Assembly (NCBI GenBank): GCA_010365215.1
Contig: JAAFGT010000031.1
Span: forward strand, 1 to 40,765
Length of the DNA stretch: 40,765 nucleotides
Direction: 5' to 3'
From: Acidipila sp.
GTDB lineage: Bacteria; Acidobacteriota; Terriglobia; Acidiferrales; UBA7541
A model generated the notes under the pieces. That model did not search any database. It saw nothing but the letters and a program-made list of their open reading frames with translations, and had not been told where the DNA came from. The position numbers were made by a program, and so were the translations under genes. This document shows, piece by piece, positions 32,829 to 40,356 of this stretch (its first letter is position 1; the number at the start of each line of letters is the position of its first letter).

Positions 32829-35800
32829 ATGGGCACACTTTTCGACATGACGCCGGAATTCCCGCGCCCTGGCGCAGGCGACGACGGCCTCAACGCCCAA
32901 CAGCGCGCCGCCGTCAAGCACGGCGATGGTCCGCTGGTGGTGGTAGCCGGCGCAGGCACCGGAAAAACCCGCGTGATCACGCAGCGCGTGGTGCGCCTGC
33001 TCGAAACTAACGCCGACCTGGCCGGCGGCCAGATCCTCGCACTCACCTACACCGACAAAGCCGCCGGCGAAATGCGCGCCCGGATCTCGCGCGCCGCAGG
33101 AGAACGCGCCGAGGGACTCACCGTCAGCACTTTTCACGCTTTCTGTTTGTCGCTCTTGCAGGAAATCAATCCGGCGCTGCAACCCATTGACGACGTGGAT
33201 CACTGGATCCTCCTGCGCCGCAACATCGCCAAGCTGCGATTGGAACGGTACCGCCGCCTGGCCGAGCCGGGGCAGTTCCTGGGCGACTTCGTGACATTTT
33301 TCTCGCGCTGTCAGGACGAGCTGGTCACGCCCGAGGATTACCAGCGCTACGCGGACACGCTCGCCGCCGCCGTCGCTGCAGAGCCGGAACTTCCCGCGGA
33401 CGAAATCACCGAGGAGCTCACCGAAGCGCGCGCCCTGCGCCAGGAAAAAGCCGCGCAACAGCAGGAAATTGCTCGTGCCTTCCTGGCCAGCGACCTGCTC
33501 CTGCGCGAGCGCAAGCTGCTCACCTTCGGCGCGTCGATGCAGGAAGCGGTGCACCTGCTGCAGACCGACTCCGCGCTGCTGGAGCGGCAGCGCGCGCGGT
33601 TTCGTTTTATTCTGGTGGACGAATTCCAGGACACAAACTTCGCGCAGCTCGTGCTGCTCGAGCTGCTCGCGGGACCGGCGCGCAACCTCTTCGTGGTCGG
33701 CGACGACGATCAAGCCATCTACCGTTTTCGAGGCGCTTCGTTCGCCAATTTCAATCTGTTCCGCAACAAATTCGTGCTGGCCGGAGATTCCCATGCCAAC
33801 GCTCGCCCCATCGAAGTGGTGCTCAACCAGAACTACCGCTCTTCGCAGCGCATCTTGCGCATCGCCGAAGCCTCCATCCGGCAAAATGGAGCGCAAAATC
33901 GCTATCGCCCCGACAAAAACCTGCACACCGAAAACCCCCAGGGCGAAAAAATTGTGCTGGCGGAGTTTTCACGCCCCCAGGAAGAAGCTCACTGGATCGC
34001 GGAACAGATTTACGAGCAGCATCGCCGCGGCCGTGCCTGGTGCGAATTCGCCGTGCTGTATCGCGCGCACCTCCACCGCGAGCATTTAATTGGCGAGCTG
34101 CGCCGGCGGCAAATTCCCTTCATCATCCGCAAGCTTTCCATTCTAACCAGTCCGCTAGTGCGCGATCTGCTGGCCTACCTGCGCCTGATCGATTCTCCGC
34201 ACGATAACGTGGCCTGCGCACGAGTGCTGGGCATGCCCGCGTGGGGCCTGACCCCAACCGACTTGGTGCGCCTGGCCGAGCGCGCCAAAAAAGGCCGAGG
34301 CATTTCGCTGTGGGACGCCTATTCCACCCAGGCAGACACCCCCGACGCAATCGGTGGCGAAGCAATCCCTCGCGAAGCAATCGGCGACGCGGCCGCTCGC
34401 CAAGCGCTGGTAAAACTTATCCTCCATCTGCATTCGCAGGCGCGCCGCATCTCCGCGCTCGAGGTCTTCGACGAACTGGCCGGCGAGATTGGCCTGCTCC
34501 CCTTCCCTTCCGCGGACGATGGCAAGCTCGCGCACCAGCTCGCGCGCTTCCTGCGCGGATGGGAACTCAAGAGCGACACGCGCTCGCTGCGCGAATTCTG
34601 CGAATACTTCCGCTACTTCGAGGAAGGCGGCGGGCAAATCAACCGGGACGAAGAAGACTCCGGCCAGGATGCCGTCGAGCTCATGACCGTCCACGCCGCC
34701 AAAGGCCTCGAGTTCGATCACGTTTTTGTCATCCGTCTGAGCCGCGGCGCTTTTCCCGCGCGGCCTCACAAACCCGTTCTGGAATTTCCTCTCGAATTGA
34801 TGAAGGAGGAGCGTCCCTCGGGCGATTTCCACGTGCAGGAAGAGCGCCGGCTGTTTTACGTGGCGCTGACGCGCGCGCGCAAACGGCTGACGCTGACCAC
34901 GGTGATAAATAGACGCACCAAACCTTCGCCGTTCCTCGACGATTTCCTGAGCGAGCCGGCCATCGCGCGCGCGGATGTTACCCAGGTGGCCCCCAAAGTG
35001 GAATTGCCGCCGCCCGGCGCTTCTGCGCGAACCGAGCCTGACGGCGCTCCTCTGCTTTTCCCGCAGGACGGCAAGGCCGGCCGCACCGGCTCGCGCATCG
35101 CGCGCTGGGCTTGCGGCTATCGGCCACCGGTCTTTGAGCCGCTGGAACTGAGCGCCTCGGCGGTGGATAACTATGGGATGTGCCCGCAGAAATTTCTGTT
35201 CGCTTCGCGCTGGAGCATTCGTGGCGGCGCCCATGGCACGCTCACCTTCGGGAACGTCATGCACCTGACGGTCAACGAATTTCTGAAAGGGTTGAAACTC
35301 AAACCCAAATTTCCTTTCGATGAGGTTGCGCTGGTCTACCGCCGGGAGTGGAGCTCCTCCGGATTTCAGGACGAATACCAGGAGGAGCAGTACAAAAAAG
35401 AGGGCTTGGAACAGTTGCGCGCATTTCACGGCACCACGCTGGCCGCGCCGCCCGATGTGCTCACGCAGGAAAAAAGATTTGAGCTGCCCATGGCCGGGAA
35501 TATCGTGGTCACCGGGCGCATCGATCAGGTCAATCGCCTGGCCAGCGGCGACGCGGAGATTGTCGATTACAAAACCGGGCGGCCGCGCACCACGGACCAC
35601 GCCAGAAAGAGCTTGCAGTTGAGTCTATATGCCATTGCCGCGCGCGAAGTGCTGGAGGTGGAGCCCGCGCGCATGGTGTTTTACAACCTGGCTACCAATG
35701 AAGCGGTGGCCACCACGCGCACGGAGAAACAGCTCGAAGAAACGCGAACGCAGGTTGCCGAAGCTGCCGCGAATATTCGCGCCGGAAACTTTACCGCTAC

Positions 35801-35939
35801 GCCCGGCTTTCATTGCCGCAGTTGCGATTACCGGCCCATCTGCCCCGCACAGGAGCAACTCGCCGATCAAGCGATCGTAGCTTTTGCGAACCCCGACGCG
35901 GTTCTTGGTTCAACCGACGCCGGCGAACCCATTTACTAG
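32829..35939 (+). CDS. UvrD-type helicase fused to RecB/AddB-like Fe-S nuclease
   Basis: A DNA repair or recombination enzyme of 1036 residues. The N-terminal superfamily-1 helicase has Walker A AGAGTGKT (40-47), VDEFQD (263-268), GDDDQAIYRFRGA, and VHAAKGLEFDHVFV. The C-terminal PD-(D/E)XK nuclease (about 770-1010) has the GRIDQVNR segment and VDYKTG (912-917). Four cysteines, Cys785 and Cys996-x2-Cys999-x5-Cys1005, match the iron-sulfur staple of AddB-type nucleases. The layout resembles AdnA/AdnB, which work as a pair, yet no second subunit is adjacent. A spacer around residues 500-520 has repeated EAI units. ATG at 32829 has a weak ribosome binding site; ATG at 32847 is possible. Confidence 0.9.
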   Translation: MGTLFDMTPEFPRPGAGDDGLNAQQRAAVKHGDGPLVVVAGAGTGKTRVITQRVVRLLETNADLAGGQILALTYTDKAAGEMRARISRAAGERAEGLTVSTFHAFCLSLLQEINPALQPIDDVDHWILLRRNIAKLRLERYRRLAEPGQFLGDFVTFFSRCQDELVTPEDYQRYADTLAAAVAAEPELPADEITEELTEARALRQEKAAQQQEIARAFLASDLLLRERKLLTFGASMQEAVHLLQTDSALLERQRARFRFILVDEFQDTNFAQLVLLELLAGPARNLFVVGDDDQAIYRFRGASFANFNLFRNKFVLAGDSHANARPIEVVLNQNYRSSQRILRIAEASIRQNGAQNRYRPDKNLHTENPQGEKIVLAEFSRPQEEAHWIAEQIYEQHRRGRAWCEFAVLYRAHLHREHLIGELRRRQIPFIIRKLSILTSPLVRDLLAYLRLIDSPHDNVACARVLGMPAWGLTPTDLVRLAERAKKGRGISLWDAYSTQADTPDAIGGEAIPREAIGDAAARQALVKLILHLHSQARRISALEVFDELAGEIGLLPFPSADDGKLAHQLARFLRGWELKSDTRSLREFCEYFRYFEEGGGQINRDEEDSGQDAVELMTVHAAKGLEFDHVFVIRLSRGAFPARPHKPVLEFPLELMKEERPSGDFHVQEERRLFYVALTRARKRLTLTTVINRRTKPSPFLDDFLSEPAIARADVTQVAPKVELPPPGASARTEPDGAPLLFPQDGKAGRTGSRIARWACGYRPPVFEPLELSASAVDNYGMCPQKFLFASRWSIRGGAHGTLTFGNVMHLTVNEFLKGLKLKPKFPFDEVALVYRREWSSSGFQDEYQEEQYKKEGLEQLRAFHGTTLAAPPDVLTQEKRFELPMAGNIVVTGRIDQVNRLASGDAEIVDYKTGRPRTTDHARKSLQLSLYAIAAREVLEVEPARMVFYNLATNEAVATTRTEKQLEETRTQVAEAAANIRAGNFTATPGFHCRSCDYRPICPAQEQLADQAIVAFANPDAVLGSTDAGEPIY

Positions 35940-36001: not shown

Positions 36002-36400
36002 CTACCCCATGGTATTCACAGCATCCGGCGCGATTTTATAAATCACTCGCACCTCCGTGGCGCTGCGAAACGGATATTTTTCCTTGCCCATGTATTTCAT
36101 GGCCAGCTTGTCGATGTGCTGGTCGGCGCCCTGCTCGGTGATGTCCACCACGCGCCCTCGAATTTGAAGATAGCGATACGGGTTCGCCGGATCGGCGATG
36201 GCCAACGCCACGCGAGCGTCGCGCCGCATATTGCGATCCTTCACGCGGCCCTTGGCGGTGTTTACGCGAATCGAATCGCCGTCCCGATCTACCCATACCG
36301 GCGTTACTTGCGGGCTGCCATCCGGCATCAGGGTAGCCAGGCTGGCAAACGCGGGCTTCTCCAGCAGATCTGCGAATTCTTTCGGTATCGAATTTTTCAT
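36002..36400 (-). CDS. PPOX-class (pyridoxamine 5'-phosphate oxidase-like) flavoprotein
   Basis: A 132-residue split-barrel protein of the PPOX class, which binds FMN or F420 and reduces or oxidises small substrates. Visible signatures are FASLATLMPDGSPQVTPVWVDRDGDSIRVNT, GRVKDRNMRRDARVALAIADPANPYRYLQIRGRV, and the C-terminal YKIAPD. The NMRRD and YLQIRG segments are typical of the 'PPOX class F420-dependent' group. I chose ATG at 36400 because GGGAG lies 6 bases upstream; ATG at 36412 gives four extra residues. The cofactor (FMN or F420) cannot be told from the sequence. Confidence 0.85.
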   Translation of the reverse strand: MKNSIPKEFADLLEKPAFASLATLMPDGSPQVTPVWVDRDGDSIRVNTAKGRVKDRNMRRDARVALAIADPANPYRYLQIRGRVVDITEQGADQHIDKLAMKYMGKEKYPFRSATEVRVIYKIAPDAVNTMG

Positions 36401-36596
36401 AGCCTCTCCCATCCGGCTTTTTCTCCAGTGGCGCCGGTGCCGCGCAAATCTCTCCTGCTCACTCCAAATCTAACACACCATGCCGATCAGCCGCAGCGCT
36501 CACGAATGTTTGGAGCGCGGCTTCCAGCCCAGCTATTTTCCGCCAGCGAACATTTTTGGACTCGCGCGCCCTTCCCTCCGCATCACCTGGCCCAGG

Positions 36597-36631
36597 AAAT
36601 AAAAAAGGGGCGCCAATACTGCAGGCGCCCC
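36597..36631 (-). terminator. strong intrinsic terminator of the tiny lysine-rich ORF
   Basis: On the minus strand an 8-base stem GGGGCGCC / GGCGCCCC with a 9-base loop (36631-36607) is followed by TTTTTTATTT. It stands 21 bases after the stop codon of the tiny ORF at 36652-36699. The neighbouring PPOX gene starts further on and runs away from it, so it cannot serve that gene. Confidence 0.9.
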
Positions 36632-36651
36632 GCATAACCAACTACAAAAAG

Positions 36652-36699
36652 TTACTTCCCTTTCTTCTTGGCTTTCTTTTTTGCTTTTTTCATGCGCAT
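36652..36699 (-). CDS. 15-codon Lys/Ala micro-ORF with its own transcription signals
   Basis: The frame codes for MRMKKAKKKAKKKGK: 15 residues, of which nine are Lys and one Arg. A second in-frame ATG at 36693 would give 13 residues. AAGGAG stands 3 bases before the first ATG and 9 before the second; the second has the better spacing. A promoter (36764-36792) and a strong terminator (36597-36631) frame it, giving a transcript of about 160 bases. No longer in-frame start exists between promoter and ATG. The peptide resembles the lysine/alanine tails of histone-H1-like and nucleic-acid-binding proteins. It may be a micro-protein, or the transcript may act as a small RNA. I know of no described family. 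Confidence 0.55.
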   Translation of the reverse strand: MRMKKAKKKAKKKGK

Positions 36700-36763
36700 T
36701 GGCTCCTTGGGTTTCCCCTCGCGCGCGTTCCCTCTCCGGATCGCGTCGCATTTTTCTACTTCA

Positions 36764-36792
36764 TCTATACGAGCGCGGTATTTCTAAGTCAA
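36764..36792 (-). promoter_or_regulatory. sigma-70-type promoter of the micro-ORF
   Basis: On the minus strand TTGACT (36792-36787) and TATAGA (36769-36764) are separated by exactly 17 bases. Both boxes are close to consensus. It begins 48 bases after the stop of the VWFA-related gene and leads to a leader of about 58 bases before the micro-ORF. Confidence 0.7.
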
Positions 36793-36839: not shown

Positions 36840-37970
36840 CTATTTCGGCGCAACGGAAAAATATCCGTCGCGAGTCAGGATCTCGAGTCCCGCGCGCGCC
36901 ACGCGCACCTCGATGGCGTGATATTCGCGCGAGCGATCGGTGCCGCGCGGCGAATAGGCCAGCGTGAATTGATTGCGCGCCTGCTCGAAGGCGCGCCCGT
37001 AAAGATTCTCCAGGTCCCCGCGCGTCGGCGCATAGAATGCATCGCCGCCGGTAGCGTGCGCGTATTTTGCCAGCGCGCTGGTGCCGCGGTTGAGCACCGC
37101 TTCGCTGACCCCGATGGCGTATACGGAAATATCGGCCGAGAGCAGCACGCGCATGGCGTCCGCGTATTTGGCCGTGTTGTTGCGCGAATTCTTTCCGTCG
37201 GAGACGATCACGATAATCTTGCGCCGGTCGCGTCCGCGGGAACGCAGCAGGTCGCCCGCGGCCAGCACCGCGTCGTCCAGATTTTTTGAGCCGCTGCTGC
37301 GCACGCGCGCCGACTGCGGCACGCCGTTTTCAACCGGCGCGGTATTGAGGCGCGGCGGCGAGGTCATGGCTGCCGAGCCTTGTCCCGGCGCGTGATGCTG
37401 CAAATCCAGGCGTTTCAATTGTTCGTGCAGCTTGTCGTTGTCGGAGGTGAACTCGATCACCGTGCGCGGGAACTGTTCGAAGAGCATCACCGCCGCTTCG
37501 TCGAGCGGCCCCAAGCCTCCGGTCAGCGAAGCTGCGCTGGAATCCACGAAAGCCGCGGTGCGCGTGGGCAGGTCGTCGTCGAGCAGCACCACCATGGAAA
37601 GAGGAAAGGCCTCGGCGGAGAAGACGGCAATCTGCTGCTCCACGTCATCCTCGAAAATCCGGAAATCTTTCCGGCCCAGCCCGGCCACGGTGGTGCCGCT
37701 GCGGTCTTTGACGGTCACCGGCACCACCACCAGCTCGCCGACGACGCGAATTCGCGTGCGCGGATCCTCTTCGCGCTGCGGCGCCGCTGCCGCTGGAGTC
37801 TGCGCCCCAGCCGGAGCCGATGCTGGAGCCGCTGCTGGAGCCTGCGGCGCGGGCTTATCGGATGGTTGTTGCGTCCCGTTCGGGGGCTCCTGTCGTGCGT
37901 TACCGGGAGTCGCCGTCGTAAAAGCCAGCGTGGTCAGAAGCACCACGGCAGGTAGTAGGTGTCGAGTCAT
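36840..37970 (-). CDS. VWFA-related secreted protein with degenerate metal site
   Basis: One of three members in this window of the acidobacterial VWFA-related family. The 376 residues have a signal peptide (about 1-25), a long Pro/Ala-rich linker (26-65), and the conserved core (about 72-370). Family landmarks are VPVTVKDRSGTTVAGLGRKDFRIFEDDVEQQI, SGSKNLDDAVLAAGDLLRSRGRDRRKIIVIVSDGKNS and the C-terminal LTRDGYFSV. The metal motif, normally DxSxS, is LLDDDLPT here, so divalent-ion binding is doubtful. The partner is unknown; such domains usually mediate protein adhesion. The micro-ORF unit follows directly. Confidence 0.88.
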   Translation of the reverse strand: MTRHLLPAVVLLTTLAFTTATPGNARQEPPNGTQQPSDKPAPQAPAAAPASAPAGAQTPAAAAPQREEDPRTRIRVVGELVVVPVTVKDRSGTTVAGLGRKDFRIFEDDVEQQIAVFSAEAFPLSMVVLLDDDLPTRTAAFVDSSAASLTGGLGPLDEAAVMLFEQFPRTVIEFTSDNDKLHEQLKRLDLQHHAPGQGSAAMTSPPRLNTAPVENGVPQSARVRSSGSKNLDDAVLAAGDLLRSRGRDRRKIIVIVSDGKNSRNNTAKYADAMRVLLSADISVYAIGVSEAVLNRGTSALAKYAHATGGDAFYAPTRGDLENLYGRAFEQARNQFTLAYSPRGTDRSREYHAIEVRVARAGLEILTRDGYFSVAPK

Positions 37971-38154
37971 CGAGTTCTCGTTTTCCTTTGGCGCGTGCTA
38001 AAAACCGTCCACGCATGCGATGCAGGCAGCCGCCCGTGCGCTGCTCGCATCGTAACTCCTTCAAGCAGTTTGGCTACTAAGCAGATTTGCTACCAAGCAG
38101 TCTTGCTGCAAGTGGGTCGAAGTCGCTGTGCAAACCGTCGAAGGGGATTATACA

Positions 38155-39150
38155 ATGCCGAAGCGCATGATTCGCCGCACACTCTTTTTGGCCGTCTGGA
38201 TTGCCGCGCTGCTGATTCCCGCGGCGCTGCCGCGCGCTATCGCGCAGCAGACGCAAACTCCCCAGGAGTCTTCCCAGACTCTCAAGGTCCAGGTCAACCT
38301 GGTCAACGTATACGCTACCGTGCGCGACAAGCATCACGCCATTGTGCCCGACCTGAAAAAAGAAGATTTCCACGTCTTTGAAGACGGCGTCGAGCAGAAG
38401 GTGGATTCGGTCGCGCTGGAAACCGAGCTGCCCCTGACCTTCGCCATCCTGGTCGACACCAGCGGCAGCGTCGAGCGCCTGTTGGGCGCCGAGCAGTCCA
38501 CCGCCTCGCGATTCCTCGAGCGCGTCATGCGTAAGACCGATCTGGCCATGCTGATCAGCTTCGACCTTAGCGCCGACGAGCTCCAGGGCTTTACCAGCAG
38601 CGTCGCCGAGCTCGAACGCGGCATCAATCGCGCGCGTATCAATACCGGCGGATCGGCGCGAGTGACTCCGGATACGTTTCCCACGAACCGCAACATTGGG
38701 ACGGTGCTCTACGACGCCGTCTATCTCGCCTGCCGCGAAAAGCTCGCGGGCGAAGCAGGACGCAAAGCGATCATCATCCTCACCGATGCCGAGGACAACG
38801 GCAGCAAGGTATCTCTCGAAGAGTCCATCGAGGCCGCGCAACGCTCCGATACGGTAATCCACATTCTCCTTCAGTCCGAGAGCAGCTTTGGTGGATTTGG
38901 CGGGAGCGGTGGAGGCGTAGCTCGAAAAATGACCAATGAGACCGGCGGGCGCCTGGTGGCAGTGCGCAGCGAAAAAGATCTTCAAAAAGCGTTCGACCAG
39001 ATTTCAGAGGAGCTGCGTGGCCAGTACCGGCTCAGCTACTATCCGGCCAATCCCGCGCGCGACGGGAAATTCCGCCGTATCCGCGTCGAGTCCACGCGCC
39101 CCGATACCAAAATCACCGCCCGCCAGGGCTACTACGCCCCGCGCCACTAG
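38155..39150 (+). CDS. VWFA-related secreted protein, intact metal site
   Basis: Second of the three VWFA-related proteins. The 331 residues start with a signal peptide (about 1-30, ending RAIAQ). The core shows VNLVNVYATVRDKHHAIVPDLKKEDFHVFEDGVEQKV, the metal motif DTSGS in FAILVDTSGSVERLL, and AIIILTDAEDNGSKVS. It ends QYRLSYYPANPARDGKFRRIRVE and ARQGYYAPRH. ATG at 38155 with GAAGGGG upstream was preferred to a GTG at 38128. It is divergent from the first VWFA gene and convergent with the third. The DTSGS motif is the main difference from the first copy. Confidence 0.9.
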   Translation: MPKRMIRRTLFLAVWIAALLIPAALPRAIAQQTQTPQESSQTLKVQVNLVNVYATVRDKHHAIVPDLKKEDFHVFEDGVEQKVDSVALETELPLTFAILVDTSGSVERLLGAEQSTASRFLERVMRKTDLAMLISFDLSADELQGFTSSVAELERGINRARINTGGSARVTPDTFPTNRNIGTVLYDAVYLACREKLAGEAGRKAIIILTDAEDNGSKVSLEESIEAAQRSDTVIHILLQSESSFGGFGGSGGGVARKMTNETGGRLVAVRSEKDLQKAFDQISEELRGQYRLSYYPANPARDGKFRRIRVESTRPDTKITARQGYYAPRH

Positions 39151-39169
39151 CACGCGGGCCCAACACCTG

Positions 39170-39200
39170 TAATCCCGAGCGCAGCGAGGGATCTGCTCCC
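39170..39200. repeat. copy of a dispersed intergenic repeat
   Basis: The gap between two convergent VWFA genes holds TAATCCCGAGCGCAGCGAGG followed by GATCTGCTCCC. Its right part matches the element at 35944-35960. The TCCCGAGCGCAGCGAGGGA core is imperfectly palindromic. Similar phrases are, to my knowledge, scattered widely in Acidobacteria intergenic DNA. Confidence 0.5.
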
Positions 39201-39226
39201 AGGCCGGCTCTTTCGCGCCCTCAAAT

Positions 39227-40312
39227 CTAATTCGGTCTTTGCGCGCCGCCCGGCGAGCCATTGGCCGCCCGCGTAGCGAAGTAGCCTTTTCGCGCGCGCA
39301 CGCTCAGCCCCTTGCGCTCGACCTCCACGCGAATGCGCCGGAATTTCCCGTCGAACGATTTATTGGAGGGCGCGTAGGCCAGTTGGTACTGGCTGCGGAG
39401 CTCATCGCCAATATCCTGAAACGAAGCCGCCAGGTCATCCAGTTTGTACGGAAAAAAAACCCGCCCGCCGGTCTCGTCGGCGAACTGCTGCAGCACTTCA
39501 TCATTCTCAGTCTTGTGCAGCTTGCGGTCGGAGCGCTTCGAGGCATCGCTGGTCTGCGAAGAGGAAACCCAGTCGGTGCTGCTGCTGATGCAGTACACCG
39601 CCACTTCCCCGCGCTGCGCACTCTCCACCGATTCGCTGCGCGAATGGCCGCTTAGATTGTCGTCGCCATCGCTGATCACCACCAGCACACGGCGCACCGC
39701 ATCGTTGCCCGCGCCTGCCGGCAGCTTGGCTTCGGCCAGCTTGCGCGAAGCGATTTCCACCGCGTCGTAAAGCGCCGTGCCGCCGCCGGCGCGCTGCTTC
39801 TGGATGGCTTCGGTCAGCGTGCTCACGTCGTCGGTGAAATCCTGCACGATCGACGGCTCGTTATCGAAAATCATAAGGAAGGCCTGGTCTTTCTGCCTGC
39901 GGATAGTGTTATGCAGAAAATCGATGGCCGCTTCCTGCTCGAACTTCAGCCTCTCGCGGATGCTGTTGGAGGTGTCCAGCAGCAGCCCCACGCGCAGCGG
40001 CAGATCCGTCTCGCGGCTGAAGAACAGGATGTCCTGCAGCTTTCCGTCCTCGGTAAGGTGGAAGTCGGTCTTGTTGAGGTCGGTGACAAACTTCTGGCGG
40101 CGGTTGAGCACCGTGCTGATTACGTTCACCAGATCCACGCGGCTGACGATGCTCTGCCCCTCCGGCGGTTTTTGTGCTGCGACCTTCGCGGGCGGCTCTT
40201 GTGCCGGCGCCGTAGCCGTTGAGATTGCCAGGCCCGCAAGAAATACCGACAGAAAAATAACCATAACCGAGGGATGCAAGATTTTCATAGCAGGCGTTAT
40301 CGTGGAACGCAT
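39227..40312 (-). CDS. VWFA-related secreted protein, intact metal site
   Basis: Third VWFA-related protein. From ATG at 40312 the product has 361 residues with a signal peptide (about 10-38, ending TAPAQ). It shows RVDLVNVISTVLNRRQKFVTDLNKTDFHLTEDGKLQDI, the metal motif DTSNS in VGLLLDTSNSIRERL, GGTALYDAVEIASRKL, and VLVVISDGDDNLSG. The end is QYQLAYAPSNKSFDGKFRRIRVEVERKGLSVRARKGYFA. An Asp/Ser/Lys-rich insertion near SSQTSDASKRSDRKLHKTENDE lies before the last part. GTG at 40336 or ATG at 40288 are other possible starts; none has a strong ribosome binding site. Confidence 0.88.
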   Translation of the reverse strand: MRSTITPAMKILHPSVMVIFLSVFLAGLAISTATAPAQEPPAKVAAQKPPEGQSIVSRVDLVNVISTVLNRRQKFVTDLNKTDFHLTEDGKLQDILFFSRETDLPLRVGLLLDTSNSIRERLKFEQEAAIDFLHNTIRRQKDQAFLMIFDNEPSIVQDFTDDVSTLTEAIQKQRAGGGTALYDAVEIASRKLAEAKLPAGAGNDAVRRVLVVISDGDDNLSGHSRSESVESAQRGEVAVYCISSSTDWVSSSQTSDASKRSDRKLHKTENDEVLQQFADETGGRVFFPYKLDDLAASFQDIGDELRSQYQLAYAPSNKSFDGKFRRIRVEVERKGLSVRARKGYFATRAANGSPGGAQRPN

Positions 40313-40356
40313 AGTCGTAAAGACCTCATCCACCAACTAAAGTTTGAATTATAAGC

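Follow-up and report, generated by a model that had tools for sequence, protein, structure and literature searches.

A predicted lysine/alanine micro-protein gene behind a VWA gene of Acidipila sp. resembles free-standing units found widely in Acidobacteriota

Lysine-rich, low-complexity protein segments are familiar in bacteria from the histone-H1-like and HU C-terminal tails of AlgP, Hc2 and HupB/HupS, and the protamines of animal sperm are further small basic proteins. Dual-function small RNAs such as SgrS and RNAIII also encode a small protein, the leader peptides of the trpL and hisL type serve amino-acid attenuators, and bTHX, bS22 and bL37 exemplify small basic ribosomal proteins. Genes of 11-32 codons rich in Lys and Ala are shorter than annotation normally accepts, disappear under low-complexity masking, and encode products that trypsin shreds; a widespread gene can therefore stay invisible through its small size, low-complexity masking and trypsin cleavage. 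Among the titles and abstract beginnings of the literature matches listed, we found no description of such a peptide gene.

The window analyzed here is the whole 40,765-nucleotide stretch of contig JAAFGT010000031.1 from Acidipila sp. Comparison with relatives shows that one of its intervals holds what is predicted to be a monocistronic gene: promoter and terminator signals of its own flank it, and its predicted product is a Lys/Ala micro-protein of 13 residues with net charge +9. Its composition would assign the product to the small basic nucleic-acid-binding proteins, a known kind. The promoter, Shine-Dalgarno sequence, open reading frame, stop codon and terminator that a first-pass annotation had listed were all recovered, in the order given there and on the minus strand (Table 1). 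The promoter part shares 76% DNA identity with genus g7, and the terminator stem GGGGCGCC/GGCGCCCC at 36631-36607 is followed on the minus strand by TTTTTTATTT. The upstream VWA gene is one of three adjacent TIGR03436 VWA genes at 36840-40336. No tRNA or tmRNA was found in the window.

Table 1. Features of the micro-protein unit and its neighbors in the window.
Feature	Position	Strand	Basis
VWA gene (TIGR03436), upstream; syntenic anchor in the window's family and f2	36840..37970	-	
Promoter TTGACT-N17-TATAGA	36764..36792	-	sequence; TTGACT 36792-36787, 17 nt, TATAGA 36769-36764
Inferred transcript, ~157 nt	36601..36757	-	transcription start predicted from the -10 box
Shine-Dalgarno AAGGAG	36703..36708	-	sequence
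ATGCGC (contains the first ATG), directly before the start	36694..36699	-	sequence and family comparison
Alternative start, adding MR to MKKAKKKAKKKGK	36699		
Micro-ORF MKKAKKKAKKKGK, 13 aa, with stop (probable start)	36652..36693	-	sequence, synteny, codon tests
Stop codon TAA	36654-36652	-	sequence
Intrinsic terminator: GC stem of 8 bp, then T run	36601..36631	-	sequence
F420/PPOX oxidoreductase gene, downstream, same strand as the unit	36002..36412	-	
UvrD-like helicase gene, convergent, behind the unit	32829..35939	+	

Two in-frame ATG codons could open the reading frame in the window, at 36699 and 36693, lying 3 and 9 nt from the GGAG, respectively. In all 26 units of the window's family that carry a Lys-rich micro-ORF (K-ORF), the GGAG ends 5-10 nt upstream of the start; because this spacing aligns with the second ATG, the start is probably there, and the product MKKAKKKAKKKGK is likelier than MRMKKAKKKAKKKGK. 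The 15-residue frame read at first pass, MRMKKAKKKAKKKGK, is thus present, and the product is probably its 13-residue part. The motif ATGCGCG precedes the K-ORF start in genera g2, g11 and g13 and is absent before it in g6. Since f8 peptides (L175, L163) start with MKCATKK, encoded by ATGAAATGCGCAAC, the ATGCGC of the window's family may descend from an old N-terminal coding segment.

Within the window's family, the VWA protein was matched in 80 of 89 genomes (source genome included) at E values up to 1e-40, and a K-ORF occupies the place behind it at 26 loci in 26 of the 89 genomes. These micro-ORFs comprise 13-18 codons, start 113-260 nt downstream of the VWA stop, and encode peptides such as MKKKAKKDEKKGPKKGK, MKNKPKKEAKKQPKKKGK, MKKVPKKEKKKGK, MKKATKKAPKKGKKG and MAKKAKKAAKTAKKGSKC. 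The terminator stem begins 17-32 nt past the stop; a terminator was demanded by the definition of a unit, and all 26 loci flagged for a K-ORF had one. L073, L081, L096 and L112 had been removed as false before counting. A script detected the TTGAC...TA promoter in 23 of the 26; at L054 it picked a wrong site, the promoter itself being present. One alignment, A2, was poor near the start codon and yielded no model. Away from the VWA place, K-ORFs occur in g6 (L154, ~6 kb from a VWA match, and L127, on a contig from a genome in which the VWA protein was not matched) and, with AGGAG, in two g12 genomes (L318 by script, L319 by eye); a doubtful case lies elsewhere in one g9 genome (L309). A small ORF of another kind, MAKKALKKGKKLAGTKNLSAPGVI, lies at locus L315 (G006:C241), preceded by a GGAGG Shine-Dalgarno and followed by a GC stem and T run.

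Whether these frames are translated can be judged from how their codons differ. In seven sister pairs chosen by hand, 22 of 29 differences fall on third positions, with pS 0.367 against pN 0.030 (Fisher 5e-12); the unfiltered set gave pS 0.696 and pN 0.174. Reading the same pairs in frame +1 reverses the relation (pS 0.014, pN 0.115, p 0.008), and frame +2 shows no synonymous excess (pS 0.069, pN 0.097). The pair L041/L042 has accumulated five synonymous changes and zero non-synonymous ones. Pooled pN/pS values were 0.149 in f1 (48 pairs), 0.097 in f11 (26 pairs) and 0.172 in the pattern-scan set described below (243 pairs); the pairs are not independent, L345, L228, L232, L240 and L290 were omitted, and pN in the pooled set is lowered because pairs had to reach 70% peptide identity. 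The reading frame is thus kept under purifying selection: the first-pass annotation had proposed a real gene overlooked by annotation and had named synonymous versus nonsynonymous changes between relatives as a check, with loss of the frame among them as grounds for rejection, and its proposal holds through both the orthologous place and the codons. Because the unit recurs at that place and its codons are under purifying selection, it exceeds what chance would produce, and we regard the reality of the gene as almost certain.

To follow the unit further, we built a covariance model from the 26 units and searched 399 genomes in the class and 396 in the phylum with it. Because this model also matches the Lys-rich ends of long proteins, matched loci were read individually. 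In the class, free-standing micro-ORFs were present in 13 of 20 regions read (long-protein ends in 7) and in 8 of 11 further regions (long-protein ends in 3), and 19 of these 21 loci have a promoter-type site 84-137 nt upstream of the start, that of L182 being GTGACA rather than TTGAC. The phylum search gave 30 loci, from which the window (L141), the long-protein end L207, and L209 were excluded, the latter two having been read earlier; 23 of the remaining 27 are free-standing micro-ORFs and 4 are long-protein ends. Similarly, at least 9 of 20 weaker matches elsewhere in the family genomes are ends of long proteins, and the source genome has one strong match to the unit and, by score alone, three further model matches (E 6e-4 to 2.5e-3). 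Many micro-ORFs sit inside longer open frames, where the start rests on the Shine-Dalgarno sequence and similarity, most of all in f93, whose sole case (L195) counts as a micro-ORF depending on the start chosen. Longer ORFs with long, H1-tail-like Lys/Ala ends, mostly with a GC stem behind, were seen in the phylum at L153, L168, L169, L172, L310, L322, L323 and L324.

Micro-ORFs were found under the family labels f1, f2, f4, f5, f6, f7, f8, f11, f12 and f15 within the class and f28, f37, f59, f75, f78, f91 and f93 outside it; 16 labels besides that of the window thus hold similar free-standing units, with peptides such as MATKKAAKK..., MKNATKK... and MAKKAKGGKKKAGKKR. For f11, 50 of the 80 genomes gave a DNA match at E values up to 0.001, and 26 of 30 loci (query included) are micro-ORFs, all 26 with a TTGAC promoter and GGGAGAA and 21 with a detected terminator. 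A pattern scan of genome contigs (MAKKA...KKR-stop), with 80 of 83 stretches analyzed, found such ORFs in 64 of the 80 listed loci: 55 bear Acidobacteriota titles, Luteitalea among them and with two genus names checked, 5 bear odd titles in Acidobacteriota gene neighborhoods, 3 bear other titles without such neighbors, and 1 is a long-protein end. In these listed loci, MAKKAKGGKKKAGKKR occurs 23 times in 10 DNA versions. Genes of this type range far wider than close relatives, and the window gene resembles a wide Acidobacteriota group of free-standing micro-protein genes. At L228, L232 and L290, the micro-ORFs MAKKAKKAAPKKKR, MAKKAKKAAKKKKKR and MAKKAKKAAKKKKR come with a Shine-Dalgarno sequence and terminator under record titles of Dehalococcoidia, Proteobacteria and FCPU426; they look like units of this kind and have no neighbors in common with the Acidobacteriota loci; with taxonomy taken from these titles, a spread beyond the phylum is possible.

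Tandem copies occur in at least 8 of the 23 phylum micro-ORF loci (L193, L196, L198, L200, L211, L212, L214, L219), the genes being often paired outside the class. Pairs were also seen in the pattern scan (L226, L234, L243, L246, L251, L267, L271, L272, L274, L280, L282, L295), where the Shine-Dalgarno is of AGGAG type before the first ORF and of G-run or GGGAGGG type before the second; starts of tandem pairs lie about 160-280 nt apart. An f2 unit stands at the same place between VWA and helicase genes and an f6 unit near such genes, which suggests that the gene is older than the window's family. Neighbors differ among five other loci examined, as expected for a stand-alone product. Only the units at the VWA place (f1, f2) are clearly orthologous; a shared origin for every unit across the phylum is plausible and less certain, because low-complexity Lys/Ala sequence can arise repeatedly.

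The 102 distinct peptides measure 11-32 residues, consist of 55% Lys and 28% Ala, carry a net charge of +7 to +15, lack Phe, Tyr, Trp, Ile and Leu altogether, and end in Lys or Arg in 97 cases; they derive from 155 micro-ORFs, a set in which typed lists and L228, L232 and L290 are included and some genomes may be represented twice. By composition, they have the Lys/Ala-rich repeat segment of H1-like proteins and HU tails. Such a peptide would remain unstructured in the cytoplasm and, judging from its charge alone, would bind polyanions (DNA, RNA or polyphosphate) in the manner of a detached histone-H1/HU tail, helping to compact or condense nucleic acid. We give this composition-based mechanism, a polycation resembling a detached histone-H1 tail and acting on DNA, RNA or polyphosphate, an even chance of being correct.

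The window's family adds a further layer, since the unit often persists there without its peptide. In 28 relatives, the sister genus included (g3, g4, g5, g7, g8, g9 and G013 of g2), the corresponding place holds (A)TGCGCG and no K-ORF. Of these 28, 26 have a detected TTGAC promoter and 26 a terminator, the set comprising 26 complete units plus L062 and L068, whose contigs end before the terminator; the motif reads ATGCGCG in 26 and ATTGCGCG in 2, and in G013 a stop codon directly follows the corresponding ATG. In a tree of 31 VWA proteins, from which g3, g10, g11 and g12 were left out, the two g7 sequences form the sister group of the window (99/98), while G013 falls together with two g2 genomes that carry the K-ORF (100/100); the presence or absence of the K-ORF demands 5 changes on this tree, at least 4 of them by well-supported branches. 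The peptide is therefore dispensable in places. We rejected another peptide in the K-ORF-less units: by-eye reading of the frames that open at ATGCGCG in g4, g5 and g8 led us to treat them as non-coding, because their length and end are unconserved and 2 of 6 g5 units have ATTGCGCG.

Such scattered losses from units that keep promoter, motif and terminator favor an alternative already raised at first pass, namely that the locus is primarily a small regulatory RNA and its Lys-rich frame secondary. Eight g4 transcripts point the same way, having an invariant core and helices in common, in which 20 cells show changes on both sides versus 9.0 in shuffles. However, the terminator and the hairpin preceding it account for 18 of these 20 double-change cells; pairing reaches 75% in the first helix and only 70% in that hairpin, and additional pair types show no excess over shuffles (167 of 500). 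The pattern would fit an RNA role in the window's family. Set against a primarily regulatory RNA are also the third-position bias and constant peptide type wherever the ORF is present, and the lack of (A)TGCGCG before the start in g6, so that we hold this reading unlikely. The first-pass alternative may nevertheless be partly right: in the window's family alone, the transcript would have a second, RNA-level role that has outlived the peptide in several genera.

Gene order bears on another reading, in which the Lys codons form the leader peptide of a transcription attenuator. A run of Lys codons does stand shortly upstream of an intrinsic terminator, and a sense PPOX gene follows in the window and in both g7 genomes. 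That gene lies behind only 3 of 52 units (26 with a K-ORF and 26 complete without), so a regulated sense gene directly downstream is generally missing, and the two g7 units that have it carry no Lys ORF; a search limited to helicase and PPOX found a convergent helicase behind 47 of the 52, and neighbors vary in other lineages. A classical attenuator is accordingly disfavored by the convergent helicase, less so for the window taken alone, and we consider it highly improbable. In one genome (G024, L009 1721-2418), the stretch between unit and helicase contains two small genes on the strand of the unit that by eye resemble RelE/HigB and HigA. An additional basic ribosomal protein, in place of a nucleoid or RNA polycation, would suit a short, basic product with a good Shine-Dalgarno sequence and promoter, whereas plain Lys/Ala repeats of varying length seem ill-suited to one rRNA site and the gene is missing from many relatives; we rate it as improbable, if somewhat less so than the attenuator. 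Each promoter-, Shine-Dalgarno- and terminator-like element is common by itself, but their alignment by chance is refuted by the orthologous units and codon selection, leaving it a negligible prospect. The best explanation overall, which we consider moderately probable, is a micro-protein gene with a polyanion-binding role like that of H1/HU tails, together with the RNA-level second role in the window's family.

Rfam returned no matches in the window or in 20 related loci and, in 17 family loci, 4 matches with E values up to 2, all under the gathering score; a known RNA was accordingly rejected, no Rfam family reaching that score in any of the three sets. None of 3 peptides matched NCBIfam.

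More broadly, and only tentatively, the units could represent a phylum-wide, hitherto unnoticed gene for a Lys/Ala polycation that stands by itself and would be the smallest protein to condense chromatin or RNA in bacteria, encoded as a stand-alone unit and duplicated in tandem in some classes, with the mRNA of one family turned into a regulatory RNA that outlives the peptide. If this is true, several lineages offer a natural series of mRNA-to-sRNA conversions. Lineages with the unit but no peptide allow a direct test of the step from messenger to non-coding RNA. If the peptide proves to be abundant as a polycation, one of the commonest soil phyla would possess a minimal nucleoid or RNA-condensing protein.

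Compared with known systems, the micro-protein is akin to the tails of AlgP, Hc2, HupB and HupS, which are strongly positive, built of (A/P/T)AKK-type repeats and composed mainly of Lys, Ala, Thr, Gly and Pro; it differs in being the tail alone, 11-32 residues with its own transcription signals and no globular domain. Protamines are likewise very short, basic and of low complexity, whereas the micro-protein is bacterial and rich in Lys/Ala instead of Arg. The leader peptides of the trpL and hisL type also repeat the codons of a single amino acid close to a terminator, whereas a convergent helicase follows 47 of the 52 family units. SgrS and RNAIII similarly combine a short transcript with a Shine-Dalgarno sequence, a small ORF and a terminator, and in the window's family features of the unit persist where the ORF is gone; here, in contrast, the encoded product is a basic repeat peptide, and its ORF is missing in many relatives.
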